Shown: positions 3,877 through 16,418 of the stretch, one piece after another | Layout: each line of letters opens with the position of its first letter | Numbering within the stretch: position 1 is the stretch's first letter | Made by a program: the position numbers and the translations under genes | Notes under the pieces: model-generated | What the model was told of the DNA's origin: nothing | Databases searched by the model: none | The model's input: the letters and a program-made list of their open reading frames with translations, nothing else | DNA from: an uncultured Pseudoflavonifractor sp. | GTDB taxonomy: Bacteria > Bacillota > Clostridia > Oscillospirales > Oscillospiraceae | Assembly: GCA_947651395.1 (NCBI GenBank) | Contig: CANSYW010000013.1 | Span: 1 to 55,541, forward strand | Length of the DNA: 55,541 bases | Direction: 5' to 3'

Positions 3877-3920
3877 AACAGATCCCGGGGCCTGTCCCCG
3901 GAATCTGTTTTTTGTTTTTA
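3877..3920. terminator. Shared terminator of dacF-like gene and pdx kinase
   Basis: AACAGATCCCGGGG and CCCCGGAATCTGTT form a stem with one mismatch around a CCTGT loop. It is flanked by a T-run on the plus strand and by A-rich sequence that gives a T-run on the minus strand. It lies between two convergent genes. Confidence 0.85.
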
Positions 3921-4766
3921 TGTCAACCGGCCGAGCAGGGTCTCAAATTGTACCCCCTCCTCCAGGGGTGTCCCCAGCTCCAGGGTATATCGGGCGCACT
4001 CGCCCACAAAATCCACCGCCAGCTCCGCCGCCTCCTTCAATGCCTTTCCCCCCAACAGCGCCCCCAGGGTCACCGTGGCGAACAGGTCTCCCGTACCGGG
4101 AAACTGCGCCGGAGTTTCATGGACGGCGGAGAGGGCGATCCGGCCGGTCTCCCGGTCAAAGCTGGCACAGCCCACACAGTCCACCGCCGGGTGCACCCCG
4201 GTGATGATCACCGACCGCTTCCCCTCCGCGCTCAGCCGTTCCAGCCATACCTTCAATCCCGCCTCGCTTTGGGGCGCCCGCTCGTAGGGCTCGTCCAGCA
4301 GTATGGCGGCCTCGGTGAGATTGGGAGTGATCACGTCCGCCAGCCGGGCCAGAGACTTCATCGCCTGACACATGGCGGGCGTGTACGTCCGGTAGGGCTT
4401 TCCCCAATCCCCCATCACCGGATCCACCAGCACCAGGGTATCCCTGTCCCGGAACCGGCACAGGAAATCCTCCAGCACGCCGATCTGCCGTTCCGAGCCC
4501 ACAAAGCCGCTGTAGAGGGCGTCAAACCGGGTCCCCAGCTCCGCCCAGTGATCTGCCGAGCCCTCCATCTCCCCGGTAAGATCCCGGAACACAAAGCGCT
4601 CCGAGGGCGGAAAAATGGTGGAGGCGGACAGATAGGCCGTGGGCAGGGCGGAGCACCAGCAGCCCATGGCGGACAGCACCGGCAGAACGATCGACAAAGA
4701 GCAGCGCCCCATGCCGGACAGGTCATGGACGGCGGCCACATGGGGCGCCTTTTTCCCTTGTGCCAT
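3918..4766 (-). CDS. Pyridoxamine/pyridoxal kinase (PdxY/PdxK-like)
   Basis: A ribokinase-fold enzyme that phosphorylates B6 vitamers in the cytosol. The protein from the chosen ATG is about 282 residues, starting MAQGKKAPHVAAVHDLSGMG. It shows the B6-kinase N terminus (HDLSGMGRCSL), a central LVDPVMGDWG, and a C-terminal GTGDLFATVTLGALL carrying the catalytic Asp of the GxGD motif. Start 4766 has GGGGG upstream. The longer frame (ATG at 4823) is excluded because a -10 box (4795-4800) lies inside it. The gene stands alone and is divergent from tRNA-Leu. Confidence 0.88.
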   Translation of the reverse strand: MAQGKKAPHVAAVHDLSGMGRCSLSIVLPVLSAMGCWCSALPTAYLSASTIFPPSERFVFRDLTGEMEGSADHWAELGTRFDALYSGFVGSERQIGVLEDFLCRFRDRDTLVLVDPVMGDWGKPYRTYTPAMCQAMKSLARLADVITPNLTEAAILLDEPYERAPQSEAGLKVWLERLSAEGKRSVIITGVHPAVDCVGCASFDRETGRIALSAVHETPAQFPGTGDLFATVTLGALLGGKALKEAAELAVDFVGECARYTLELGTPLEEGVQFETLLGRLT

Positions 4767-4794
4767 GTACGTACCCCCAAAGACGTTTTTTACC

Positions 4795-4823
4795 ATTATA
4801 GCGCCTTCAAAACCGGAACGCAA
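4795..4823 (-). promoter_or_regulatory. Promoter of the pyridoxamine kinase gene
   Basis: On the minus strand a -35 TTGCGT (4818-4823), 17-nt spacer and perfect -10 TATAAT (4795-4800). It fixes the start codon at 4766. Confidence 0.7.
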
Positions 4824-4826
4824 CGA

Positions 4827-4855
4827 TTGACGGAGATAATTTTGTTTGCTATACT
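4827..4855 (+). promoter_or_regulatory. Promoter of tRNA-Leu
   Basis: -35 TTGACG (4827-4832), 17-nt spacer, -10 TATACT (4850-4855), 11 nt before the tRNA. It is divergent from, and 3 bp away from, the kinase promoter. Confidence 0.75.
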
Positions 4856-4866
4856 AAAACATACAT

Positions 4867-4952
4867 GCGGGCGTGGTGGAATTGGTAGACTCGATGGATT
4901 TAGGTTCCATTGCCTTTACGGTGTGCGGGTTCGAGTCCCGCCGCCCGCACCA
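4867..4952 (+). tRNA. tRNA-Leu (anticodon UAG)
   Basis: Acceptor stem GCGGGCG pairs with CGCCCGC, followed by discriminator A and an encoded CCA. The anticodon arm ATGGA-TTTAGGT-TCCAT gives anticodon TAG. A long variable arm, as expected of tRNA-Leu, follows, then the T-arm CGGGTTCGAGTCCCG. The accessory island begins directly after its 3' end, a common position for integrative elements. Confidence 0.95.
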
Positions 4953-4970
4953 AAACAAATGCCCACTTTA

Positions 4971-4999
4971 GATGCCGTAGGCGGAAAGCCTACGGCATC
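4971..4999. repeat. Perfect 12-bp hairpin after tRNA-Leu
   Basis: GATGCCGTAGGC, loop GGAAA, GCCTACGGCATC. No immediate T-run follows, so it is either a weak terminator or processing hairpin of the tRNA transcript, or a structure at the island end. Confidence 0.8.
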
Positions 5000-5075
5000 A
5001 GTGGTTTCCGGGGTTTTTAGTCCCTCAATTTTCACAAGTCAAACAAGAGATGTAAATGCGGGTTTTCGAGCAACT

Positions 5076-5091
5076 GGCGGGAGTCGAACCC
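5076..5091 (-). other. tRNA T-arm-like fragment (possible attachment-site relic)
   Basis: The minus strand reads GGGTTCGACTCCCGCC, which resembles the T-arm of a tRNA including TTCGA. It is opposite in orientation to tRNA-Leu and not part of a full tRNA. It could be the scar of a tRNA-targeted integration, or chance. Confidence 0.4.
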
Positions 5092-5113
5092 TCGTAAAGC
5101 ACAATTGAAAAAG

Positions 5114-5186
5114 GGCGCTAAACTCAGCGCCAAATTCAGGCGTCGGTCAGATGGCAAATCAACAGCCATCCGGTCGGCGCTTTTTT
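5114..5186 (+). promoter_or_regulatory. Leader with mutually exclusive stems (candidate attenuator)
   Basis: GGCGCT (5114-5119) can pair with AGCGCC (5126-5131). The same AGCGCC can pair with GGCGCT (5176-5181), which runs directly into six T. Between them GATGGC (5150-5155) pairs with GCCATC (5165-5170). This is the geometry of an anti-terminator versus terminator switch about 100 nt before the first island gene. Confidence 0.45.
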
Positions 5187-5284
5187 CATACCCAGCGCCC
5201 GTTTTCAAAACAGGGCAAATCAAAAAGGGCCCTGGCTTTTTCAAGGGAAAAAGTTACATTTTACTAAATCAGCAGGAGGAAAAC

Positions 5285-5989
5285 ATGAACGAAGAAAAAA
5301 GCAGATATTTTAACGAGCTGACCCTCAACCTTCAGCAGGCGGGTCTCACGGTAAAGCCGGAGACGGAGGATGGTCTCCTGCCGGTGGAGCTGGATGGACA
5401 GCGCCTCTGCCTCGCCTTGGACGGCGGCTCTGTGCGGTACTGGAGAGAAGATGCCGCTGATGACTACAGGCGGGAAGCCCTGGACAGGGTCACCACCATC
5501 GCCAAAACCACCGCTGAGTATATGAGTCAGATGGAGGCGGCGCCCCAGTTGACCGCCAGCGGGCTGAAGGGCGATTACAGGTTGTTGGCTGACTTCAACG
5601 ATGTAGTCCTGGCAGGACATCCAACGCAATATGGCGTTCAGCTCATCACCTGGGAACGGGTTCAGGGGCGCACCGGTCTGCACCAGGGACACTACTACGG
5701 CCCCAGCGCAGGAGTTGACAGCTATACTGCCGCCAAGCAGGACTTCGCCACCCGCTCCGGCCTCATTCCCCGCAGCGCCCTTTTTGCCCCGGAGCAGCTG
5801 ACAGAGGTGTACCGCAGCATTCACGAAACACTGGACAGTGAGTATCCCATCACAGAGGAAAGACAGAGGTGCTTGCAATCCGCAGCAGAGCAGATCGAGC
5901 GAAATGTTCCGGATCTGGAGGAACGTGTGGCGCTCTCCAATCAAAAGGAGCAGGACGCTCCCGAGCAAGGCGGAATGCAATTCTGCTAA
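5285..5989 (+). CDS. Island gene 1: hypothetical protein ending in GGM motif
   Basis: A predicted cytosolic protein of 234 residues with no signal peptide or membrane segment. I do not recognise its fold. The first half contains charged alpha/beta sequence; residues about 110-130 contain the aromatic/Gly-rich HQGHYYGPSAGVDSYTAAKQ; the last third looks helical. It ends QGGMQFC, like several other proteins of the island. The start is chosen at ATG 5285 because of AGGAGG 5 nt upstream; the frame is open further upstream but there runs through the structured leader. A terminator follows, so it may be its own transcription unit. Confidence 0.75.
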   Translation: MNEEKSRYFNELTLNLQQAGLTVKPETEDGLLPVELDGQRLCLALDGGSVRYWREDAADDYRREALDRVTTIAKTTAEYMSQMEAAPQLTASGLKGDYRLLADFNDVVLAGHPTQYGVQLITWERVQGRTGLHQGHYYGPSAGVDSYTAAKQDFATRSGLIPRSALFAPEQLTEVYRSIHETLDSEYPITEERQRCLQSAAEQIERNVPDLEERVALSNQKEQDAPEQGGMQFC

Positions 5990-6002
5990 ATTGTTGATTT
6001 TT

Positions 6003-6046
6003 GGGCCGTTTCCCTTTGAAAAGGGCAGGGCCCTTTTTCTTTTTTG
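6003..6046 (+). terminator. Terminator after island gene 1
   Basis: GGGCC (6003-6007) pairs with GGCCC (6029-6033), and inner CCCTTT (6012-6017) pairs with AAAGGG (6020-6025). TTTTTCTTTTTT follows. The stem has an internal loop. Confidence 0.65.
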
Positions 6047-6073
6047 TCCTTTTCAGAGGGATGCCAATATAAA
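6044..6073 (+). promoter_or_regulatory. Possible promoter of island genes 2-9
   Basis: -35 TTGTCC (6044-6049), 18-nt spacer, -10 TATAAA (6068-6073), directly after the terminator and 21 nt before the next ATG. The -35 match is weak. Confidence 0.4.
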
Positions 6074-6094
6074 CTCTGAAAGGAAGTATGAACT

Positions 6095-6277
6095 ATGGCA
6101 AGATACTTTATGAGCGACACCCGGCTGGGCTGGCTGGAGAAGATGATGATGGACCCGTCCAGAACGCCCTCCGTCCGCACCGACTCCCGGAGGAACCGGC
6201 CGCAGAAGAAGCCGCCGTGTGACCGGACGGTCAAGCCGCAGACCTCCGGGCGGAAACCCAAAGGGGGCGGCGTATGA
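6095..6277 (+). CDS. Island gene 2: small basic protein
   Basis: A 60-residue protein whose second half is rich in Arg, Lys and Pro (RRNRPQKKPP). Its stop TGA overlaps the next gene's ATG (ATGA), and a GGAAG site lies 8 nt before its own ATG. This favours a real, translationally coupled gene. No family is recognised. The basic, disordered tail suggests nucleic-acid or acidic-protein binding, but that is inference only. Confidence 0.6.
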   Translation: MARYFMSDTRLGWLEKMMMDPSRTPSVRTDSRRNRPQKKPPCDRTVKPQTSGRKPKGGGV

Positions 6278-7491
6278 GTTACGTCATTCAGGCAGTGCTG
6301 AGCAACTCTCAGCACCCGGAACACGGTCAGATCACCATCCCCTTCCCCATTCCACCGGAACAGTATGACCAGACCATCGGGATGCTTCGGGCGATGGATC
6401 TGGGGTTCTCCAGAAACCGGGACTGCACCGTGGATGGGCTGGACAGCCGGTTCCCTGTGTTAGAGGCCCTCCAAGGGACGCTGGTCAACGTGGATCAGCT
6501 GGACTACCTGGCGAAGCGGTTAGACAGCTTCTGCGCCAGTGAGGACAGCCAGTACAAGGCCATGGCCCACAAGCTGGGGTTGGAGAATATCAAGGACTTT
6601 ATCAACCTGACCTATTGCTGTCAGCAGGCCACGGTCATCACTGATTTCTCCGACTTGGAGCGGATCGGGAAAGACCACAGAATGACGCTGAACGGCGGCT
6701 CGATGCCGATGGAGCAATTCCAAGCGGTGGATGGCAGAAAAGAGGCTCTCCAGCTAATCCAGGACGGCAGCGGAACGGTCACCCCCTACGGTGTGGTTTA
6801 CGACAACGGCATGGTGCTGGAGCAGCATTATAACGGACATCAGTTCCCCGCGTATCCCTACGATAGTATGCTGATGGTCCTGGAGGTCACACCAAAGTGT
6901 GGCCTGAGAGAAGGCCAGAATCCGGAATACCTCTATCTCCCTGCCGCCGCCCATCAAATTGAGCGGACATTGCTCCGTATTGGCCTCAACACAATCTCCG
7001 GGGCGCAGATCCGGCTGGACTTCGATGAGCTTCCGGAAAAGGTGTCGGAAGCCCTGGACTTGGAGTGTATGAGTGGGGATGACCTCCCCGCCCTCAACCG
7101 GATGTGCCAGGCCATCGTCCCCTTGAACGATGCGGATATCGAAAAACTGAACGCGGTGGTGCTGATGGCGGAGCCGGGCGATATCATGGCGGTATGCGAA
7201 CTGGCAGAAAATCTGGAACTGTTCGATTTTATCCCCGGCGCCCATACCCCGACGGAATTCGGCAGATACATGATCCGGGAGTCCGGCCACTTCGAGTATG
7301 ATGAGGAGTTGGAGGGCTTCTACGACTACCGTCTTTATGGGGAGCAGCACATCCAGCAGGAGGGCGGACAGTTCAATGAGTGCGGCTATGTGGCCTACCA
7401 CGGTACCATGGCGCTGGAGGATTTGATGCGGGAAGACCCTGCGGAACAGTACCAGCGTGAGCAGGGGCTCCAGATGGGAGGGCTGACATAA
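6274..7491 (+). CDS. Island gene 3: tandem ArdA-like antirestriction protein
   Basis: 405 residues built of two ArdA-like modules. ArdA proteins are acidic DNA mimics that block type I restriction enzymes. Module 1 carries SDLERIGKDHR near 126-136 and ends around TVTPYGVVY (168-176). Module 2 (about 218-375) opens YLYLPAAAHQIERTLLRIG and ends in FYDYRLYGEQHIQQEGGQF followed by CGYVAY (349-375), the pattern I recall from annotated clostridial ArdA proteins. The C terminus is QMGGLT. The start ATG overlaps the previous stop, and the stop overlaps the next ATG (TAATG), so it is the core of a coupled operon. The family call is from motif memory, not a search. Confidence 0.68.
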   Translation: MSYVIQAVLSNSQHPEHGQITIPFPIPPEQYDQTIGMLRAMDLGFSRNRDCTVDGLDSRFPVLEALQGTLVNVDQLDYLAKRLDSFCASEDSQYKAMAHKLGLENIKDFINLTYCCQQATVITDFSDLERIGKDHRMTLNGGSMPMEQFQAVDGRKEALQLIQDGSGTVTPYGVVYDNGMVLEQHYNGHQFPAYPYDSMLMVLEVTPKCGLREGQNPEYLYLPAAAHQIERTLLRIGLNTISGAQIRLDFDELPEKVSEALDLECMSGDDLPALNRMCQAIVPLNDADIEKLNAVVLMAEPGDIMAVCELAENLELFDFIPGAHTPTEFGRYMIRESGHFEYDEELEGFYDYRLYGEQHIQQEGGQFNECGYVAYHGTMALEDLMREDPAEQYQREQGLQMGGLT

Positions 7492-8594
7492 TGGTTTTGT
7501 ATCTGAAATGCCGGGGATACGGCATTGGGCTGGATCTGCCCACAACGCCTGAGACAGCGGCAAGCAGACTGGCCACGCTGAGAGAGGGGCTGGACCAGAA
7601 TACCCCTGTTAAAATTGATGGCGCGAGCAGCCCAGTCACCCATCTTGACCCGTACATCCAGCACGCCGATCTGGAGAACGAGGCTGACCTCCAGATGCTG
7701 AACACGCTGGCCGAGCGGATCAACGGCATGACCCAGGAGGAGCAGCGCCTTTTTTCCGGAGTGCTGGAACTGGAGTGTACCGGCAGCCTGGACGATGCGG
7801 TGCGTATGGTGAATGGTCTGGACAGGTATGAGATCTTCCCAAAGATCAAAACAGACGAAGACCTGGGCCGCTTTCTGGTGGATACCTCCTTCGTCACAGG
7901 GAAGTTCTCGTTCCCCGAGGAGACCCGGCCCTATCTGGACTACGCCAAGATCGGCGCGGAGCAGCGTGATGTCCTTGGCGGGATCTACACGCCCCACGGC
8001 CTTGTCCGGCGTCGGGAGGCCGCTCCGGTGCAGTCCGAAACGCCCCGGTCAATGCTCCTGACGCTTACCACTTCGGAACAGAGCTATCCCCTTGTCCTCC
8101 CTGCCTCGGAGGAACAGCTTGCTCACGCGAAACAGACTCTGGGTATTGAGGAGTTCGCCCAGGCGGGGATCGCCAGCGTCGAGTACACAGCGCCCTATTT
8201 GGATCAGCTGATCTCTGCGGATGGCATCACTGTGGAGGACGCCAATGAGATGGCGCTCTGCCTCCAGCGGCTCAAGACAGATGGGGAGATCATGAAATAC
8301 TGCGCCGCGCTGGAGGTGGAGGAGCCGTCCACCTTTGCCGGGGCCATTGATATCGCAATGGATGCGGATGACTATGAGCTGGTATCCGACAATGAGCATG
8401 AATATGGCCGGGAGGCCCTGCGCCGCATCGGTGCGGATGACGAGCTGTTGGACACCATTGACGGCTACACTGACTTCGACCGGCTTGGCCGGGCCATGAT
8501 GGAGGAGGACGGCGTCCGTCAGACGGGATTCGGTCTGGTGCGCCGCCTGAGCAAGCCCTTTTCCGAACCGGAAATCGGGCAGACAATGGGGTAA
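7491..8594 (+). CDS. Island gene 4: tandem ArdA-like protein
   Basis: 367 residues, again two modules. Module 1 has LNTLAERINGMTQEEQRLF (70-88), typical of the helical middle, and closes with LDYAKIGAEQRDVLGG then HGLVRR (149-174). Module 2 starts near YPLVLPASEEQL (199-210) and closes with TDFDRLGRAMMEEDG then FGLVRR (327-352). The two closing motifs align with each other and with those of island genes 3, 8 and 9. The protein is acidic, as expected for a DNA mimic. It ends GQTMG, without the GGM seen in its neighbours, and the next gene starts 73 nt downstream rather than overlapping. Confidence 0.68.
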   Translation: MVLYLKCRGYGIGLDLPTTPETAASRLATLREGLDQNTPVKIDGASSPVTHLDPYIQHADLENEADLQMLNTLAERINGMTQEEQRLFSGVLELECTGSLDDAVRMVNGLDRYEIFPKIKTDEDLGRFLVDTSFVTGKFSFPEETRPYLDYAKIGAEQRDVLGGIYTPHGLVRRREAAPVQSETPRSMLLTLTTSEQSYPLVLPASEEQLAHAKQTLGIEEFAQAGIASVEYTAPYLDQLISADGITVEDANEMALCLQRLKTDGEIMKYCAALEVEEPSTFAGAIDIAMDADDYELVSDNEHEYGREALRRIGADDELLDTIDGYTDFDRLGRAMMEEDGVRQTGFGLVRRLSKPFSEPEIGQTMG

Positions 8595-8667
8595 AAAATC
8601 TTCTGGACTTTGCCACAGAGTTGTGGTATGTGTTGAAGCTGCCAAATCAAAAAAAGAGGTGAAAATC

Positions 8668-10005
8668 TTGCGAATCAACATCTACAAAGACAAGCTGCTG
8701 GATGCGCGCCTGTTCGGGGCGCCCGTCCTGTACAGCGCCCATCCCATCCCCCGCGAGGACGTGCCGCCCAAGTGGTACTGCTACGACCTGCGGGGGACGG
8801 CCCGCCACCCGGACGAACCGTATGCCCTGTTCGATCTGGCTGAGGACTGTCATACCGGCTCCGTTCTCTCCTACCTGCCGCTGAAAAGCGGGCGTTCCGT
8901 GAAACGGCTGGTGAAGAATATGTTCCAGCTGACCGGAACCAGCCACACGCTGGCAGAGTTTTGTGAGAACGAGCGTATCCAGTGCCCCGAAACTCCCATC
9001 CGCAATATGCTGCGCCCCGCTTCCCCCGAGGAGGCGGGGCTTTTCTATGCCCAGACGCCGGAGAGGGATGAGGAGCTGGGCGCTATTGGCCACGTCCGCA
9101 TCGACTTCGGGCACAACGGGCAGGGCTTCCACCATACATGGTGGCCCCGAGGCCCCGAGGAGCTGAACACCCAGGAATTCAAGGATGAGCTGGACAAAGT
9201 GGTAAACGATCTGCGGAAGGGCGTCCTGAAAGACCTCCCCTCCATGCGCCGGTACTGCTATGGCGGAGATGGGGCGATCACGGGCGGCTCCTGCTGTCAG
9301 AACTACGGCTTCACGCTGGAAACGGATCGCTGCACCTACCGCCTGCGGTGCAACCCCATAGAGGGCGACTACCAAGGCTACCTCTCCTGCTTCGCCAAGC
9401 AGGCGCAGCAGATGGGCCTGACGGAAAAAGGGCGCCAGGCCCTTCGAGACGCCGCCGATCCCAGCATGGCCCACACCTACAGCTGGTATGTGATCGAGAA
9501 CATCAACACCCCCGACCATCGGATCGACCACGAGCTGCCGCTGGATGAGGCCATTCAGCTGTATGCCGGCCTCGACTGCGGAGACAAGCGGCTGGGCGTC
9601 ACCAAGGACGATATCGCCGCCGTGGATCTGGTGATCCTGCACGATGGCCGGGAGTGGCTGTCCAAGGATTGCCTGAAGATGGGCAGTTTCAAGGACGACC
9701 CGGTGGTGGCGGAGGCTGTCGCAAAGCTCCGGCAGATGCTGGAGGCCGCGCCGATCATCGGGCGGGTCAGCTTCGCCAGCGGCGAGGAGGCTGTGTTCAC
9801 CGACTCGGAGAAATATCTCCAGACTGTCCGTGAGGAGATGCCCTATCATGCCACCACCGGCTTCCGCTGTGAGACGCTGACCGATGACCCGGCAGTCCGC
9901 AAGGCGGTGGACGATATGCTCTGCGACCTGTACGGGGAGGAAAATCCCCGTACCCTGGCGGACTACGGCAATACTGGTATGACGATGGGGGGTATGAGCG
10001 GATGA
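8668..10005 (+). CDS. Island gene 5: LPD28-like multidomain hypothetical protein
   Basis: 445 residues from a TTG start with AGAGGTG 7 nt upstream; the ATG further upstream (8623) has no ribosome binding site. The N-terminal part (about 20-95) includes VPPKWYCYDLRGTARHPDEP and resembles, from memory, the large-polyvalent-protein-associated domain LPD28 found in mobile-element proteins. A middle region (about 130-240) is rich in Trp, Cys and His (GHVRIDFGHNGQGFHHTWWP, RRYCYGG, GSCCQNYG). A third block (about 270-350) contains LPLDEAIQLY and KRLGVTKDDIAAVDL. It ends GGMSG and overlaps the next gene by 4 nt. Function unknown; its company suggests a mobile-element accessory role. Confidence 0.62.
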   Translation: MRINIYKDKLLDARLFGAPVLYSAHPIPREDVPPKWYCYDLRGTARHPDEPYALFDLAEDCHTGSVLSYLPLKSGRSVKRLVKNMFQLTGTSHTLAEFCENERIQCPETPIRNMLRPASPEEAGLFYAQTPERDEELGAIGHVRIDFGHNGQGFHHTWWPRGPEELNTQEFKDELDKVVNDLRKGVLKDLPSMRRYCYGGDGAITGGSCCQNYGFTLETDRCTYRLRCNPIEGDYQGYLSCFAKQAQQMGLTEKGRQALRDAADPSMAHTYSWYVIENINTPDHRIDHELPLDEAIQLYAGLDCGDKRLGVTKDDIAAVDLVILHDGREWLSKDCLKMGSFKDDPVVAEAVAKLRQMLEAAPIIGRVSFASGEEAVFTDSEKYLQTVREEMPYHATTGFRCETLTDDPAVRKAVDDMLCDLYGEENPRTLADYGNTGMTMGGMSG

Positions 10006-11018
10006 AAGACCTGAGCCAATGCGCCGTTGCCCGTGACGATTTTCAGCGATGGTTGGATCTGGGGCGCGCTCCCCTCACCTTTTGGGAGAGGGAGAAAGTT
10101 CTCACCACATTCACCAGATTGGAAAAAAGCCAGTCTGCGGAGTACCTGTACAGGGCGGCAGCCCAGCAGGACAACAGTATCTCCTGGAATAACGATCTCA
10201 CGTTCTGCGGTGTGTACGACAGGCAGAACCGGGCACTGTATCTGACGGAGGATACGTTGAACTGTATTGCAGAGGGCCAGTTCCCATTCGTGTCGGAGGT
10301 CACTTCCTCTATGGCGGAAGAAATCTGCGGCAGGGTGAACCAGCGTGTGGAGGCGATCATCGCCAATGACCGAAATAACCTCCCTGTCCAGGAGATCACC
10401 GGCTGGCAGGCCCAGCGCGACCTCCAATATTATCAGGAGCATGGCGCCGAGGATGAGGCCATCAGGCGGTTCTTCAAGGATGAGGACTTGGATGTGCAGT
10501 TTCACAGTGACTATACTTTGGACGGACTGCCGGAAACCGCTTTCCTGGCCTATATCCAGGACCCGGAGGGGTTTGTCCAGAACGAGGCGGAGCAGCACAT
10601 TAAAATCCATCAGGAGAAATTCCTGCTGCAATTTCTGAGAAATGACGCTCTGCTGTCGGCGTATCAGGCGCTGATGCAGGACGCCGGCAGCCCCATCCAC
10701 AGAATGAAAGCTATCACCGAGGCCATAAAGGACTGCGGCGCCAAGACAGTGAATGTGACGGTTCAGAAGGGTGATCATGAATTGACCTTTAAGGCGGCGG
10801 CAAGCTCACTGACCGGACACAAAACCTTCTACAGCACTTATGATATCCCCGCGCAGGATCGCCGCGAGTTTGAACAGCTGTTTGGCCGGCACGCAAGTTA
10901 CTATGCGGAGGACATCACCAGGATCACCTACGGCAGAAATACCATCTACGAGGCTCCGCCGATCCAGACTGAGGACATGGCGGAGGAGCCTGGAATTGGA
11001 GGGATGCAATTTGGATAA
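10002..11018 (+). CDS. Island gene 6: hypothetical protein, GGMQFG C terminus
   Basis: 338 residues, soluble, no recognised family. A helical N-terminal third contains FWEREKVLTTFTRLEKSQSA. A central acidic region includes DEAIRRFFKDEDLDVQFH. A C-terminal region (about 230-320) contains KTVNVTVQKGDHELTFKAAA and HKTFYSTYDIPAQDRREFEQ, which suggests a small beta-rich domain. Its ATG overlaps the previous stop (ATGA) and GGGGGT lies 9 nt upstream. The C terminus GIGGMQFG is encoded by the same bases that serve as ribosome binding site for the next gene. Confidence 0.62.
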   Translation: MKDLSQCAVARDDFQRWLDLGRAPLTFWEREKVLTTFTRLEKSQSAEYLYRAAAQQDNSISWNNDLTFCGVYDRQNRALYLTEDTLNCIAEGQFPFVSEVTSSMAEEICGRVNQRVEAIIANDRNNLPVQEITGWQAQRDLQYYQEHGAEDEAIRRFFKDEDLDVQFHSDYTLDGLPETAFLAYIQDPEGFVQNEAEQHIKIHQEKFLLQFLRNDALLSAYQALMQDAGSPIHRMKAITEAIKDCGAKTVNVTVQKGDHELTFKAAASSLTGHKTFYSTYDIPAQDRREFEQLFGRHASYYAEDITRITYGRNTIYEAPPIQTEDMAEEPGIGGMQFG

Positions 11019-11535
11019 CAGAGAGAACAATGTGCCGGCCCAGGCTGGAGGCGGCAGGTACTATTCGATAGACGAGCTTCTCGCCCTTATGGAGCCGCAG
11101 TACCGGGCAGACCAGGACACCACGCGCCGGTGTATTGCCGGCCTGAGCGATTACGCCGCCCAGCTTGCGGCTCAGGGACAGGAGGAACAGATCCTCCGGC
11201 TTCGTAAGCTGTGCATCGAAATGGCCGAGTTTTGGGGCCTGGCTGAGGATGACACGCTGGAAGCGTTTCAGAAAATGGAGGAGCAGTATGGCAGCGCCTT
11301 TGACAATGCGGTATCTGCCGCCCGCGACTCCGGCCATGCTCCCGAGATGGGCGAGGAAACCAGGCAAAGCATCCTCGACGGTTTGGAGATCTACGCGCAG
11401 AAAATGCGCTGCAATGGCCCTGATTGTGAGGAGTGGGCTGCCGAGTGTGACGTCCTGGCGGAGACGCTGGAGAAACAGTGGCAGATAGACGCGGCTCCGA
11501 ATCAGCAGACTGGTCTGAAAATGGAGGGAATGTAA
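11011..11535 (+). CDS. Island gene 7: small helical acidic protein
   Basis: 174 residues from TTG 11011 (MDNRENNVPAQ), overlapping the previous gene by 8 nt with GGAGGG 7 nt upstream. The frame is open further upstream, but that part lies inside gene 6 and reads as improbable Arg/Ser-rich sequence. The protein is almost wholly helical and acidic, with repeated heptad-like stretches (QEEQILRLRKLCIEMAEFWG). It ends LKMEGM. No family recognised. Its size and acidity are compatible with an ArdA-like partner or another protein-binding accessory, but there is no direct evidence. Confidence 0.6.
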   Translation: MDNRENNVPAQAGGGRYYSIDELLALMEPQYRADQDTTRRCIAGLSDYAAQLAAQGQEEQILRLRKLCIEMAEFWGLAEDDTLEAFQKMEEQYGSAFDNAVSAARDSGHAPEMGEETRQSILDGLEIYAQKMRCNGPDCEEWAAECDVLAETLEKQWQIDAAPNQQTGLKMEGM

Positions 11536-12810
11536 ATGAATCAGGTACCAAGAGAGTGGCTGGACTTTCTGCGCCAGCAGTTCCCGGAGGGCAGCCGGGT
11601 CAAGCTCCGGGAGATGAGAGACGATCCCCAGCCCATCAAACCGGGCAGCATGGGGACGCTGGATCACATCGACGACACCGGCACCTTCCACGTCAAGTGG
11701 GATGATGGCCGCGGCCTCGGTCTGGTGTTGGGGCAGGACAGCTTTTCCGTCCTGCCCCCGCCCCTCCAGACGCTGAAGCTGTACGCACCCATGACCGCCG
11801 ATCTGTACGAACCCGGCGAATACGGCGATATGGAGGATGAGCCCATTATGCTGGATGGCCGGGATCTGATTGGCTACGAGAGCACGATCATGGCGGCGCT
11901 GGTGCGGGAGCGGATGCCGGAGGAGGCCGAGCGTGGCGTCATGCACTGGTACGGCGAAGATAACGCAGTAGACCGCAAGGTACAGTCCGCCGTGTTCACC
12001 GCCGAGGCCCGAGAAGGCCAGCTTTGGGCGGTGGCCGAGTGCAAGGTGCAGGGCCAGCTGACGCCCATGGAGCTGGACACCCTGGCCGACTATCTGGGCG
12101 GACAGATGTCGGACGGCTGGGGCGAGAGCTTCGAACAGCATGAGATCCGTATTGACGGCAGCTCCGAACTCTATGTCCACCTGTGGCAGGATAAGGACTG
12201 GAGCATCATGACGGAGCAGGACCGCTTTGACCCCCACTTTTCTGAGCGGCTGCCGGATATGTGCTTCTCTGCCCTGCCCGATGACGGGCCGCTCATCTGC
12301 ATCCATCGGGGCGAAAGCGGCTATCAAGTGTCGGAGGACAGCAGCGATAAACCTGGGGTGAACCGGCACATGGCGGACTACCGCAACCGGTGTCGGGGCA
12401 TCACCAAGGCCCAGGAGCAGGCCATGCTGGGCGGACTCCGGTTCGGCTGGGATTCCCCCGCCGCTGACCCCAGAAATTACGGGCAGGAGCAGACTCTGAT
12501 GAAAAAGGCAGTTTCCGGGCAGGAAACAGCGGAAGGACTGCCCGACCTGTGTTTTTCCATCCTCCCCAGCACCGGCGCGCTCATCTGCATCAAGCGGGGC
12601 GAGAGCGGGTATTACCCCTCAGACTGGGATACCGGCGACCCGGCACAGAACCGGGAACTGATGGACTACAACAATCAGCGGCTCGGTGTCACAGAAGCCC
12701 AGAGGCTGGCGATGGAGGCTGGCTCCATGCATGGCTGGGACTGCCCCGCCGCCAATCCCAAGACCTATGAACGGGGACAGCAGCAGATGGGAGGAATGAG
12801 CCTTGGGTAA
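11536..12810 (+). CDS. Island gene 8a: DUF4314-like protein with internal repeat
   Basis: 424 residues. Positions 1-75 match, from memory, the DUF4314 domain of mobile-element proteins: [45 protein letters not shown]. The middle (about 78-230) is an unknown acidic domain with many Trp. The C-terminal half is a clear internal duplication: unit A (239-315) and unit B (335-411) share LPD-CFS-LP, LIC-I--RGESGY, NR--DY-N, GIT/GVT-AQ, G--GWD-PAA-P--Y. It begins with ATG 8 nt after an embedded GGAGGG, and its GGMSLG end overlaps the next gene's ribosome binding site. Function unknown. Confidence 0.66.
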
Positions 12811-14014
12811 GATCTTCTACGCCTACGAGATGAAACAGGATGATCCGGACAGCGGCGTTGAGGCGTTTCTGAACCTCCCCGCAACACCCTATGAAATACT
12901 GGACGCAATGGACCGCCTCCGCCGCGGTGACAGCGTTGGCGGGGAGTTCAGGATCGATGAGTATTACCGATTTGATTCCCTGGCGTCCGTCCTCCGCAAG
13001 TCCAACGACCTGCATAGGCTGAATGCTCTGGCGCAGAAGCTCTCAGAGCTGAGTGACCAGCAGGAGATCGCCTTTGAGGGCTTGCTGGAAATGGAAAGCA
13101 AAGGAAAGGCAACGCCTCTGGAGCTTCCCCGGCTGATCGATCTGGCCTACAGCACCGACTGCTGCCATGTGGTGGACGACGCCCTGAACGATTCCCAACT
13201 GGGCCTGTTCTGCGCGGAAAGCGGGTTCGTACCAGGCGCGGAGGATCTTCCGGAAGACCTCTTTGACCTGCTGGACTTTGAGCGGATCGGGCGGGAACAC
13301 CGCCAGCGGGAGGGCGGCGTGATCGTGAAACGTACCGCAGAACACGCGGGCGGTTATGTGGAGCGGTACAACCCACTGGTGGAGGCATACAAAACACTGG
13401 ATCTGACGCCCAAAATGCCGGACTACACCATCCTGCTGGAGGTGTCCAAGGGGTACTTCAACGACCCCGGCTATGACAGAGAAAAAACGGTACAGCTCAA
13501 GCTGCCGGCCTCGCCGGAGACACTGGATGCCGCACTCACCGCTCTGGACGTCTGGGACTGGCGTGAGGCGGGCTGGCACTGTCTGGACTGCAAGATCCCC
13601 TTGCTGATGGACGCCGTCTCCGATGAGGACAGCATCCATGCGATCAACGATCTGGCCCAGCGGCTGGCGGACATGGAGCCGAAAGCACTGCACACCTGCA
13701 AGGCTCTCCTCTCGGCTGTGGACTGCAAAACGCTTCAGCAGGCGGAACAGCTTATGGACACGCTGGATCAGTACATCCTCTCCCCGCAGTACAGCTCCCC
13801 CATCGAAGTTGCGAAGGGGGAGCTTTCCCTTATCCTCAGCGAACCGGATCGGGAGCTGGTCGCGTCCAACCTGAACCTGTACCGGTACGGTCAGGCGCTG
13901 GTCGAGAAATGCGGCGGTGTGCTGACGGGATACGGCCTGATCGAACGGGAAGACAGGCAGCCTGTGCAGGCGATGAATGAAGGCCCTCAGCAGGGCGGAA
14001 TGGAGATGACATGA
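12803..14014 (+). CDS. Island gene 8: tandem ArdA-like antirestriction protein
   Basis: 403 residues from a TTG start that overlaps the previous stop, with GGGAGGAATG upstream. Two clear modules: 25-187 (opening [15 protein letters not shown], helical core [15 protein letters not shown], closing [17 protein letters not shown] and GGYVER) and 234-383 (opening [15 protein letters not shown], core [13 protein letters not shown], closing [16 protein letters not shown] and GYGLIERE). This is the family member I recognise best as the long clostridial ArdA-like form. It is strongly acidic. The C terminus is QQGGMEMT. A role in protecting incoming DNA from host restriction is inferred from the family. 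Confidence 0.72.
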
Positions 14015-15030
14015 TGAACCATGACTTTGACTATCTGCTGGAACTGCCCGGCGCATCGGATGAGCAGGCTTATATCAAGGAGCGGCTGGAGACATTAAGC
14101 GTCCGGGAGGGCTACGTCCTCGCCGCCGCAGCAATGAGGCATCCGCCCAAGGACGCCAGTGAAGTGGTGGACTGCCTCCACTCCCTGGATCGCTACGAGA
14201 TCTATTTCCCGGCCAGGAACTATGCGGAGCTGGGAGAACGCAGTCTGCAGGAGAGCGCGAAATTACCGAAGGATGCCCTGCCCTATGCGAATTTGGAATG
14301 GGCTGGCGAGCTGTATGGGGACGCACACCCCGGCCTGTTCATCGGATCGTGCTATGTATGCTATCCAACCCAGACTCCCGCCCCTGTCCGACAGGAGGAT
14401 AAACTCTTCCCGCTCTGGGACAGCGACTGGAGCGTCAAGCTGAAGCTGGCCTCCCCCGCGGTGCCGGAGGGGGTTTGGCTGCGGCTACCGGGACATGACG
14501 GCAAGTTTTTCGATAAATCGGATGAGGTTGTGCTGGCGCTGGATGAACTGAAGGTCAAATCCCTGGAAGACTGCACCCTGCTGGAAGCCCGATGTATCCT
14601 CCCCGAGGCGGGTGACCTCACGAAGCAGTACAGCAGTATCATGGAGCTGGTCAGGGACGGGGAGGATCTTGGCAATGTCATGGAGGACCAGGATCAGGGA
14701 GAGCCGTATTGGATGGAGAAGTTTACTGCTGCGCTGGAGTATGAGGACTGCCGCACGCTGAAATTCGCTTTGGATATTTGGCAAAACCTCAGCTGCTATG
14801 AGTGGGTGGACAGTGAGGAACTGGGGGATTTTGCGGTGGAACATCTGCGGAGTGTGGGAGTTTTGGAAGATCTCATCCAATCCTGCTGTATTGATCTGGA
14901 GGGATACGCCAAAGACCTGCTGGAGACCTCCGGCTATATGGAGGCCAGCGGCGAGAGAGGCTATCTCCTCCGAAACACACGGGAATTTATCTATAATTAC
15001 TCCACTCCCCCCTCCCCATTGTATTTATAG
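14011..15030 (+). CDS. Island gene 9: diverged tandem ArdA-like protein
   Basis: 339 residues; start at ATG 14011 or the adjacent ATG 14014, overlapping the previous stop. Closing motif 1 is YANLEWAGELYG then HPGLFIGSCYVCY (92-118). Motif 2 is IDLEGYAKDLLETSGYM then RGYLLRN (294-322). These align with those of island genes 3, 4 and 8, though the openings are more diverged (LPGASDEQA, and WLRLPGHDG near 156). It has no GGM ending, and a new strong promoter begins on the next base. It is therefore the last gene of the array, ending at or very near the island's right edge. Confidence 0.62.
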   Translation: MMNHDFDYLLELPGASDEQAYIKERLETLSVREGYVLAAAAMRHPPKDASEVVDCLHSLDRYEIYFPARNYAELGERSLQESAKLPKDALPYANLEWAGELYGDAHPGLFIGSCYVCYPTQTPAPVRQEDKLFPLWDSDWSVKLKLASPAVPEGVWLRLPGHDGKFFDKSDEVVLALDELKVKSLEDCTLLEARCILPEAGDLTKQYSSIMELVRDGEDLGNVMEDQDQGEPYWMEKFTAALEYEDCRTLKFALDIWQNLSCYEWVDSEELGDFAVEHLRSVGVLEDLIQSCCIDLEGYAKDLLETSGYMEASGERGYLLRNTREFIYNYSTPPSPLYL

Positions 15031-15058
15031 TTGACAAAATCCATTTTTTTGCTATAAT
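15031..15058 (+). promoter_or_regulatory. Strong promoter of the DUF3798 transporter operon
   Basis: Perfect -35 TTGACA (15031-15036), 16-nt spacer, perfect -10 TATAAT (15053-15058), beginning on the base after the preceding stop codon. Confidence 0.85.
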
Positions 15059-15064
15059 AGAACA

Positions 15065-15088
15065 TTGAACAGGCGTACGCCTGTTCAA
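15065..15088. promoter_or_regulatory. 24-bp perfect palindrome at the transcription start (candidate operator)
   Basis: The half-site TTGAACAGGCGT is followed by its exact reverse complement with no spacer. It starts 6 nt after the -10 box, the classic place for a repressor dimer. Its right end also forms the left arm of the next hairpin. Confidence 0.65.
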
Positions 15089-15111
15089 GTTTTCTGTAAG
15101 AAAACTTGAAC
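15083..15111 (+). promoter_or_regulatory. 12-bp perfect stem-loop in the 5' leader
   Basis: GTTCAAGTTTTC (15083-15094), loop TGTAA, GAAAACTTGAAC (15100-15111). Its left arm shares GTTCAA with the palindrome, so in RNA the two structures exclude each other. No T-run follows. Confidence 0.6.
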
Positions 15112-15158
15112 GAGCTTTGTCTTGTATCAAAATAAAAAAGGAAACTGGAGGTTCCATC

Positions 15159-16418
15159 ATGAAGAAGAAGCTTCTCAGCGCTCTGCTGGCTCTGGCCATG
15201 ACCGCTTCCCTCGCGGCTTGCGGCGGCGGCAGCACCAGCACCCCCGCTCCTGTCGAGTCCAAGGCCGCCGAGCCCGCTCAGTCTCAGGCTGCCGAGCCCG
15301 CCGCCGATTGGCACATCGGCATCATCACCGGCACCGTCTCTCAGTCTGAGGACGACCTGCGCGGCGCCGAGACCATTCAGGCCAAGTACGGTGCGGACAA
15401 GGTCAAGCTGTCCACCTACCCCGACAACTTCACCGAGGAGCTGGAGACCACCATCCAGACCATCGTCAACATGGCCGACGATCCCCAGATGAAGGCCATC
15501 ATCGTCAACCAGTCCGTCCCCGGCACCGCCGAGGCCTTCAAGCAGGTCAAGGAGCTGCGCCCCGACATCCTGTGCATTGCCGGCGAGGCTCACGAGGATC
15601 TGCCCGTGGTGGGCGCCTCCGCCGACCTGGTGTGCAACAACGACTTCGTGTCCCGCGGCTACCTGATCATCAAGACCGCCCACGATCTGGGCTGCGACAC
15701 CTTCGTGCACATCTCCTTCCCCCGTCACATGAGCTATGAGACCATGTCCCGCCGCGTGGCCGTTATGCAGGCCGCCTGCGACGAGTTCGGCATGACCTTC
15801 CTTCAGGAGACCGCTCCCGATCCCACCACCGACGTGGGCGTCCCCGGCGCTCAGGCCTACGTGCTGGAGAAGGCTCCCGAGTGGATCCAGAAGTACGGCC
15901 AGAACTCCGCTTACTTCTGCACCAACGACGCCCACACCGCTCCCCTGCTCCAGCGTCTGATGGAGCTGGGCGGCTACTTCATCGAGGCCGACCTGCCCTC
16001 CCCCCTGATGGGTTATCCCCAGGCTCTGGGCGATCTGGATCTGACCGCCGAGGCCGGCGACTTTGACGCCATTCTGGCCAAGGTGGAGCAGGCCGTTACG
16101 GAGGCCGGCGGCGCCGGTCGGTTCGGCACCTGGGCTTACTCTTACGGCTACTGCCTGTCCGCCGGTCTGGCTCAGCACGCCATCAACGTCATTGAGGGCA
16201 AGAGCGATATCACCGACATGGACGATGTGGCCGCGGCCCTGCAGGAGTACTCCCCCAAGGCCTCCTGGAACGGCTCGGGCTACACCAACGCCGACACCGG
16301 CGTCAAGGAGGACAACGTGTTCCTCATCTACCAGGACACCTACATCATGGGCGATCCCGGCAAGTTCATGGGCGCTACCGACGTTGAGGTGCCTGAGTCC
16401 TACTTCACCGTAAAATAA
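15159..16418 (+). CDS. DUF3798 substrate-binding lipoprotein of an ABC transporter
   Basis: 419 residues with a lipoprotein signal peptide (lipobox LAAC, Cys21) and a Ser/Pro/Ala-rich linker. A periplasmic-binding-like domain follows with the DUF3798 hallmarks: WHIGIITGTVSQSEDDLRGA, KAIIVNQSVPGTAEAF, FVHISFPRHMSYE, AYFCTNDAHTAPLL and SPLMGYPQALG. DUF3798 has no assigned ligand that I know of. Its genetic position before RbsA- and RbsC-like genes makes it the receptor. The start has TGGAGG 7 nt upstream. Codon choice is strongly biased to C-ending codons, suggesting high expression. A long stem-loop follows the gene. Confidence 0.88.
   Translation: MKKKLLSALLALAMTASLAACGGGSTSTPAPVESKAAEPAQSQAAEPAADWHIGIITGTVSQSEDDLRGAETIQAKYGADKVKLSTYPDNFTEELETTIQTIVNMADDPQMKAIIVNQSVPGTAEAFKQVKELRPDILCIAGEAHEDLPVVGASADLVCNNDFVSRGYLIIKTAHDLGCDTFVHISFPRHMSYETMSRRVAVMQAACDEFGMTFLQETAPDPTTDVGVPGAQAYVLEKAPEWIQKYGQNSAYFCTNDAHTAPLLQRLMELGGYFIEADLPSPLMGYPQALGDLDLTAEAGDFDAILAKVEQAVTEAGGAGRFGTWAYSYGYCLSAGLAQHAINVIEGKSDITDMDDVAAALQEYSPKASWNGSGYTNADTGVKEDNVFLIYQDTYIMGDPGKFMGATDVEVPESYFTVK

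Follow-up and report, generated by a model that had tools for sequence, protein, structure and literature searches.

A candidate establishment operon of tandem ArdA-like proteins at the tRNA-side end of integrative conjugative elements from gut Clostridia

ArdA proteins are described as DNA mimics that block type I restriction enzymes (PMC3969726), and they and their relatives provide the background for the locus analysed, a block of nine genes at positions 4953–15030 of a 55,541-nucleotide stretch of DNA (the window) from an uncultured Pseudoflavonifractor sp. The closest described protein is ArdA of Tn916 (Orf18, PF07275, PDB entry 2w82), which four of the nine gene products resemble in module length, acidity, carriage by conjugative elements and, on predicted models of two of them, fold, while differing from it in having two modules per protein, three to five such proteins per operon and about half the charge density. 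ArdA domains are already known from polyvalent proteins of conjugative elements in Firmicutes (PMC5512222), and in Enterococcus pMG2200 the same ArdA module forms the head of a 1306-residue polyvalent YodL protein whose gene lies next to transfer genes. Such proteins share with the operon a homologous module, carriage by conjugative elements and LPD-type partners. The operon, however, consists of separate genes for proteins of about 172–460 residues, four of them made almost wholly of ArdA modules, rather than one long chain joining ArdC-N, ArdA, YodL and the like, and Pfam gave no ArdC-N or YodL match anywhere in it. Establishment or anti-defence islands have been described on conjugative plasmids (PMC8708921, PMC11541004), and in pLS20-family plasmids the establishment genes stand behind 400–600 bp leaders with inverted repeats (PMC8708921). 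The operon likewise has antirestriction-type and uncharacterized genes preceded by a leader (332 bp in the window) in which inverted repeats abound, but on integrated elements, at a tRNA junction and usually tens of kb from a relaxase. Small ArdA (sArdA) indicates that ArdA-type proteins can differ in size and stay active, although sArdA is about one third of ArdA whereas the window proteins have doubled modules (PMC12548430). No published description of the operon was found among the titles and abstract openings listed, which is no proof of absence.

Here we propose that this block forms the left, tRNA-side end of a family of large integrative conjugative elements (ICEs) in Oscillospiraceae and allied gut Clostridia and serves as their establishment operon, the window holding an orphan copy of it, and we put the probability of this reading at roughly 0.6. 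The proposal follows from the ArdA fold, the element context and the leader; antirestriction activity, its targets and conditional expression are what we infer from them. The nine genes, called W1 to W9 from left to right, lie on one strand behind a tRNA-Leu gene, their ends often overlapping or nearly so, and re-inspection of the open reading frames (ORFs) confirmed the coordinates, the frames and the dense single-strand operon described in the initial annotation of this DNA.

Tandem ArdA-like modules

Two related modules had been assigned to each of W2, W3, W8 and W9. Against Pfam ArdA (curated cut-off 27 bits), W3 (E 3.1e-9, 38.1 bits) and W8 (E 1.2e-8, 36.2 bits) match above the cut-off, each over two stretches, and W2 matches in its second half only, 1 bit below it (E 1.7e-5, 26 bits); PHROGs adds weak matches to an anti-restriction family for W3 (8e-4) and W9 (3e-4). 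The eight halves (N and C of each protein) were then compared as profiles with hhalign in all 28 pairs, together with 28 reversed controls, each profile comprising the window protein and its relatives (28–70 rows, excluding rows that cover <60% of the half). No half is without a partner at a probability of 97% or more, the maximum among the reversed controls being 26%. The best links are W3N–W8N (99.8%), W2C–W3N (99.7%), W3C–W8C (99.5%), W9N–W3N (99.1%), W9C–W8C (99.0%) and W2N–W8N (97.2%), and five of the 28 forward pairs fall under 65%, four of them involving W2N, the most diverged half. The first module of W9 has only ~135 residues and begins at the helical part, lacking the N-terminal beta part, and by its sequence is therefore classed as a truncated copy. 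The assignment of two related modules thus stands for all four proteins in that all eight halves are linked, with the qualification that one of the modules is incomplete.

The ArdA likeness itself was upheld on predicted models. For both proteins modelled, W3 and W9, Tn916 ArdA (2w82) is the best match in the PDB (Foldseek/VIA) and the predicted fold extends across the whole module, so that an ArdA fold is supported for these two. Instead of a single module of ~165 residues, W2, W3, W8 and W9 have lengths of 339–405 residues and two modules each, one of the eight being the shortened first module of W9.

Element context in related genomes

A scan of a genome contig collection with the W2 alignment gave 182 relatives, the best 80 of which underlie the locus-level results. 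Their hosts are Oscillibacter, Flavonifractor, Pseudoflavonifractor, Flintibacter, Anaerotruncus, Agathobaculum and uncultured Oscillospiraceae and Clostridia. W4 has relatives in 14 of the 99 genomes examined from its genus, family and order (its own genome counted); used as bait against the contig collection, it gave 12 pattern matches, none of them confirmed. The order W1-W2-W3-W4-(W5/W6)-W7-W8-W9 recurs in dozens of related loci, which is beyond chance, although single genes are often lost or doubled and contig ends often cut in; the local tblastn searches behind these comparisons were run without composition correction, which makes their E-values optimistic. A phage origin was rejected, since only three IMG/VR contigs encode a W3 relative and a search with the LPD28 protein W4 gave none.

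Of 81 loci (window counted), 37 contain W2 as well as W9, and these operons encode three (16 loci), four (18) or five (3) ArdA-type proteins. So many divergent proteins in one operon, together with the strong divergence of certain N and C modules from each other, would also suit another anti-defence target, such as other restriction types, BREX-like systems or CRISPR effectors, the number of paralogues mirroring the variety of targets. Searches of Pfam, NCBIfam, PHROGs and PDB folds (PADLOC lay outside this scope) gave no link to other anti-defence families, and we regard such a target as rather improbable.

A left-end position is seen in G010, a closed genome of the same genus as the window. 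There the block starts directly after a tRNA-Ala gene, and a 59-bp copy of the 3′ part of this tRNA recurs 106.8 kb further on, bounding an element of 107 kb. The element contains genes for a D12 methylase, DUF3849, SpoVG, Flp/Tad-type proteins (CpaB, T2SSE), a TraG-type P-loop ATPase, a MobL relaxase and VirD4, as well as a large serine recombinase adjoining the far repeat, and thereby unites a tRNA-adjacent block, relaxase, coupling protein and recombinase in the manner of an ICE left end. That the block is a stand-alone cassette was accordingly rejected, as relatives carry it inside this and other elements.

Relaxases of family PF03432 are present in five of the seven genomes asked (absent from G010 and from the window's own genome, G000) and never on operon contigs, and the search therefore turned to MobL. 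It was conducted in those 28 of the 80 loci that lie on longer contigs and in seven genomes. Of the 28 loci, with contigs matched by length, 15 encode MobL on the contig and strand of the block, 9–52 kb downstream from W2. Among the seven genomes, G005, G015 and G010 do so too, the G010 copy being the L118 locus again, which gives 17 of 35 distinct copies. In relatives, the block is thus often the tRNA-side end of MobL-type ICEs. Close to the block in a few loci are also putative Tn1549-type genes, with matches to the pMG2200 relaxase in L104 (2331) and L115 (379) and to VirB4 in L151 (17153).

Downstream large serine recombinases, two or three on the operon strand, were found in all three further elements examined, at ~46 kb in G111 (L122), ~90 kb in G104 (L095) and 72–76 kb in G116 (L128), the last with one extra recombinase on the opposite strand. 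For three elements other than that of G010, a repeat of the tRNA 3′ end was sought in the 120–140 kb fetched for each and was not found. Cassettes of two or three adjacent large serine recombinases on the operon strand stand towards the far end in L111 (12261–15927), L183, L192–L193 and L197–L198. In L111, which has three, a gene for a calcineurin-like phosphoesterase comes next, and what follows the cassette in G111 looks similar to what follows it in G104. L111 looks like an internal deletion that fused the block to the recombinase cassette, and its first recombinase ORF is probably a deletion fusion; in L110, L114, L124, L129 and L144 the stretch after W2 or W3 matches ~120–130 residues of this ORF.

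On the other side, tRNA genes were sought in the 54 fetched loci that contain W1 and at least 700 bp ahead of it. In 32 of them a tRNA gene on the operon strand is found no more than 700 bp upstream, where tRNA density predicts 0.016 per locus, and the tRNAs upstream of the block represent 13 anticodon types. Loci L110, L114 and L122 are 95–96% identical over at least 4.6 kb, yet stand behind tRNA-Ala, tRNA-Lys and tRNA-Leu, respectively. The leader also recurs. Among 37 leaders (the window and 36 fetched loci), 30 have a terminator-like hairpin ending 20–160 nt ahead of W1, as against 15 of 185 random stretches, which served as the control in place of other intergenic regions; in the window, 18 terminator-like sites were found between 4850 and 15200, with 7.9 expected. 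An inverted sequence resembling a tRNA T-arm lies 125–128 bp off the tRNA end in 24 of the 37 leaders, the rate in base-shuffled leaders being 0.0066 (at 115–135 bp), whereas the forward orientation of this nearly palindromic motif is found in five. The 13 leaders lacking the inverted form include all four of the G010 type (L113, L115, L117 and L118). As the relatives share ancestry, the counts of 32/54, 30/37 and 24/37 do not represent independent events.

The inverted T-arm-like sequence seems to belong to the element, since it is present even in some loci for which no tRNA was called, and could be part of an attachment site usable behind any tRNA gene. A recurring hairpin accompanies it, and the neighbouring tRNAs are of many isotypes (leaders among L078–L153). 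That it is a copy of each host tRNA was rejected, L110, L114 and L122 sharing one version beside three different tRNAs.

The window copy and its surroundings

The features of the window copy are collected in Table 1. An Rfam scan of 4700–15300 at E up to 1 matched the tRNA only, and a relative of the gene at 3918–4823 adjoins tRNA-Leu (tag) in all ten loci scanned in the genus.

Table 1. Features of the tRNA-Leu locus and the operon behind it (positions in the window)
Feature	Position	Strand	Basis
tRNA-Leu (tag); gene block starts behind it	4867..4952	+	ARAGORN, Rfam RF00005
Leader with hairpins, inverted tRNA T-arm-like sequence and terminator-like hairpins ahead of W1	4953..5284	+	sequence
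Inverted T-arm-like sequence, 127 bp off tRNA end	5080..5090	-	sequence, recurrence in leaders
W1, first gene, no known family	5285..5989	+	usual first gene among relatives
Possible small ORF of 60 residues, overlapping the W2 start	6095..6277	+	ORF only
W2, two ArdA-like modules	6274..7491	+	Pfam ArdA on second half; hhalign
W3, two ArdA-like modules	7491..8594	+	Pfam ArdA; hhalign
W4, LPD28 domain protein	8623..10005	+	Pfam LPD28, E 8e-20
W5, unrecognized protein	10002..11018	+	Pfam, relatives
W6, unrecognized acidic protein, TTG start inferred	11011..11535 (start approximate)	+	ORF frame; recurs in some relatives
W7, DUF4314 N-terminus and repeated domain phrog_10280 (two stretches)	11536..12810	+	Pfam, PHROGs
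W8, two ArdA-like modules	12803..14014	+	Pfam ArdA, two stretches; hhalign 99.8% to W3N
W9, two ArdA-like modules, the first truncated and the second full	14011..15030	+	hhalign; predicted model
Sigma-70-type promoter, 12/12 consensus bases; right junction of the block read as orphan	15031..15058	+	promoter scan

Of the partner genes, the DUF4314-like and LPD28-like proteins named in the initial annotation were both borne out by Pfam, W7 at E 1e-25 and W4 at the value given in Table 1. For W1, W5 and W6 Pfam gave nothing convincing (the best match of W1 being DUF7693 at E 0.03, below its cut-off), and the NCBIfam profiles gave nothing useful for the operon proteins. In the related locus L044 (4165–8246), W5 is present as four diverged tandem copies. 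In the window's own genome a second, different MobL/VirD4 element or remnant lies on contig C5 (84287–96121, L049) and includes a piece resembling the C-terminus of W4.

The absence of conjugation and integration genes, stressed in the initial annotation, holds for the window contig (C13), on which no ICE gene was found in searches for recombinases (PF07508, PF00589), relaxases (PF03432, MobL) and VirD4 (PF02534) at the thresholds used; it does not hold for the relatives, many of which have MobL, VirD4 and recombinases. Elsewhere in the genome, MobL and VirD4 match on contig C5 only and PF07508 recombinases on four other contigs. Nor does the window contain a second copy of the tRNA-Leu 3′ end, sought as a classical right attachment site (attR). 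The promoter directly after the W9 stop is the only perfect one among four promoter-like sites, against 3.9 expected, and apparently serves a host transporter operon. To its right follow, in a Pfam scan of 10 proteins between 16.5 and 32 kb, this ABC transporter operon, DUF6672, and then genes of the ILVD_EDD, IPP transferase and rubrerythrin families. Just past the promoter (15065–15112) stand two strong inverted repeats that overlap and are operator- or terminator-like. An empty host site that would date the junction was sought in vain: the substrate-binding gene right of the block has no relative in the 15 other genomes of the genus at E 1e-50, and the tRNA-Leu flanks in seven fetched loci gave no match to the right side of the window. 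We read the window copy as an orphan left end adjoining host genes, with an assembly join as the alternative.

Such a copy might be a decayed remnant without present function, which would be compatible with any role of the block in intact elements. The lack of transfer and recombinase genes on the window contig and the host promoter directly after the last stop codon would fit this, as would the sister copy in G005, whose W2 relative is interrupted by an in-frame stop (L041, 8773–9975) and which shows that some copies of the block are decaying. In the window, however, the genes are open and the four of ArdA type can be aligned to their relatives over nearly the full length, and in a genome that is 78.5% complete and in 31 contigs an assembly break may account for the missing genes; decay of this copy is a possibility that we hold only tentatively.

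Weighing an establishment role

Several observations weigh against the proposed establishment role within an ICE family. W9 matches Pfam ArdA at E 0.07 and 14.1 bits only, below the cut-off, and its model matches 2w82 at a Foldseek E-value of 0.016; in PDB profile searches from sequence only, 2w82 came out on top, but its E-values were 0.23 and 0.46, and W9 had no match. At the tRNA side, 22 of the 54 loci lack a tRNA of the same strand in the 700 bp upstream. MobL is missing downstream on the contig in 18 of the 35 copies, namely 13 of the 28 loci on longer contigs, the window copy, those of G034 and G043, and two in G045; several contigs end too soon, but L083, L085 and L122 have no MobL despite more than 100 kb of room. 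With the block tens of kb from the relaxase, a leading-region position near the origin of transfer is not supported. Finally, the charge density of the ArdA-type proteins is about half that of Tn916 ArdA, and the non-ArdA proteins W6 (−10.5) and W7 (−7.5 net charges per 100 residues) are comparably acidic.

The strong acidity that had been anticipated is, then, partly confirmed. By residue composition, as distinct from a surface map, W2, W3, W8 and W9 are clearly acidic, with isoelectric points of 4.39–4.49 and net charges of −8.4 to −10.0 per 100 residues. The medians of their homologues are −8.1 to −9.5. The 35 other predicted window proteins of at least 200 residues, which come from a rough codon-score gene finder and include some wrong-strand ORFs, have a median of −2.6 and a minimum of −9.5. 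Individual halves range from −5.5 to −13.0, the second halves of W2, W3 and W9 being the most acidic (−11.8 to −13.0). The yardstick is the Tn916 Orf18 monomer, whose 14 Asp, 24 Glu, 3 Arg and 3 Lys give −32 (PMC3969726), which converts over a chain of 165 residues to about −19 per 100. Since the window proteins have only about half this acidity, classical DNA mimicry by them is rated no higher than plausible.

The same deficit would fit an ArdA fold that had been kept and repurposed, the tandem proteins binding DNA-handling or regulatory proteins of the element itself (relaxosome, replication proteins or repressors) as decoys or scaffolds. It is the first modules of W2 (−6.3) and W3 (−5.5) that are least acidic, the usual company of W1, W4 (LPD28) and W7 (DUF4314) has no assigned role, and one study reportedly concerns regulation of gene expression by ArdA in Escherichia coli (PMC13300388). 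On the other hand, the ArdA relatives with tested activity in PMC3969726 and PMC12548430 are antirestriction proteins, and a location at the end of an incoming element suits establishment genes. Repurposing appears unlikely, and defence evasion the likeliest role of the ArdA-type proteins.

The best reading of the block is, in our analysis, a terminator-guarded anti-restriction (establishment) operon of the ICE family. When the element enters a recipient, the acidic tandem proteins would, like ArdA, fill the groove in which type I restriction-modification enzymes bind DNA, different modules covering different enzymes; doubling of the modules may widen the range of targets or lengthen the mimic. 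In the integrated state, the terminator-like hairpins of the leader would probably hold the operon low. Once the element is excised as a circle, the serine-recombinase genes from its far end would come to lie upstream of the operon on the same strand. The hairpins and this arrangement of recombinase genes once the ends join are the grounds for suggesting conditional expression.

A bolder combination of these elements, which we consider quite unlikely as a whole, would have the recombinases recognize the T-arm common to all tRNA genes and the family thereby insert behind almost any of them, drawing on the inverted T-arm-like sequence, fixed at 125–128 bp within the element, and on a cassette of up to three large serine recombinases towards the other end. 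Joined ends would then signal arrival in a new cell, the terminator-guarded tandem ArdA array being transcribed only in the circle, and the doubled modules would serve as extended DNA mimics, covalently joined and specific for several enzymes.

Most work on ArdA concerns elements with a single small gene for it. In the present case, a widespread family of conjugative elements of gut bacteria devotes a conserved operon, often behind a tRNA gene, to three to five doubled proteins of probable ArdA fold. The recurring leader, with its inverted T-arm-like sequence and terminators, makes two questions amenable to study: by what means one family can use so many tRNA genes, and whether circularization turns on anti-defence genes. 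If the antirestriction role is true, the operon would help to explain the passage of these elements between many gut species and would provide ready-made genes for studying how ArdA paralogues divide their targets.

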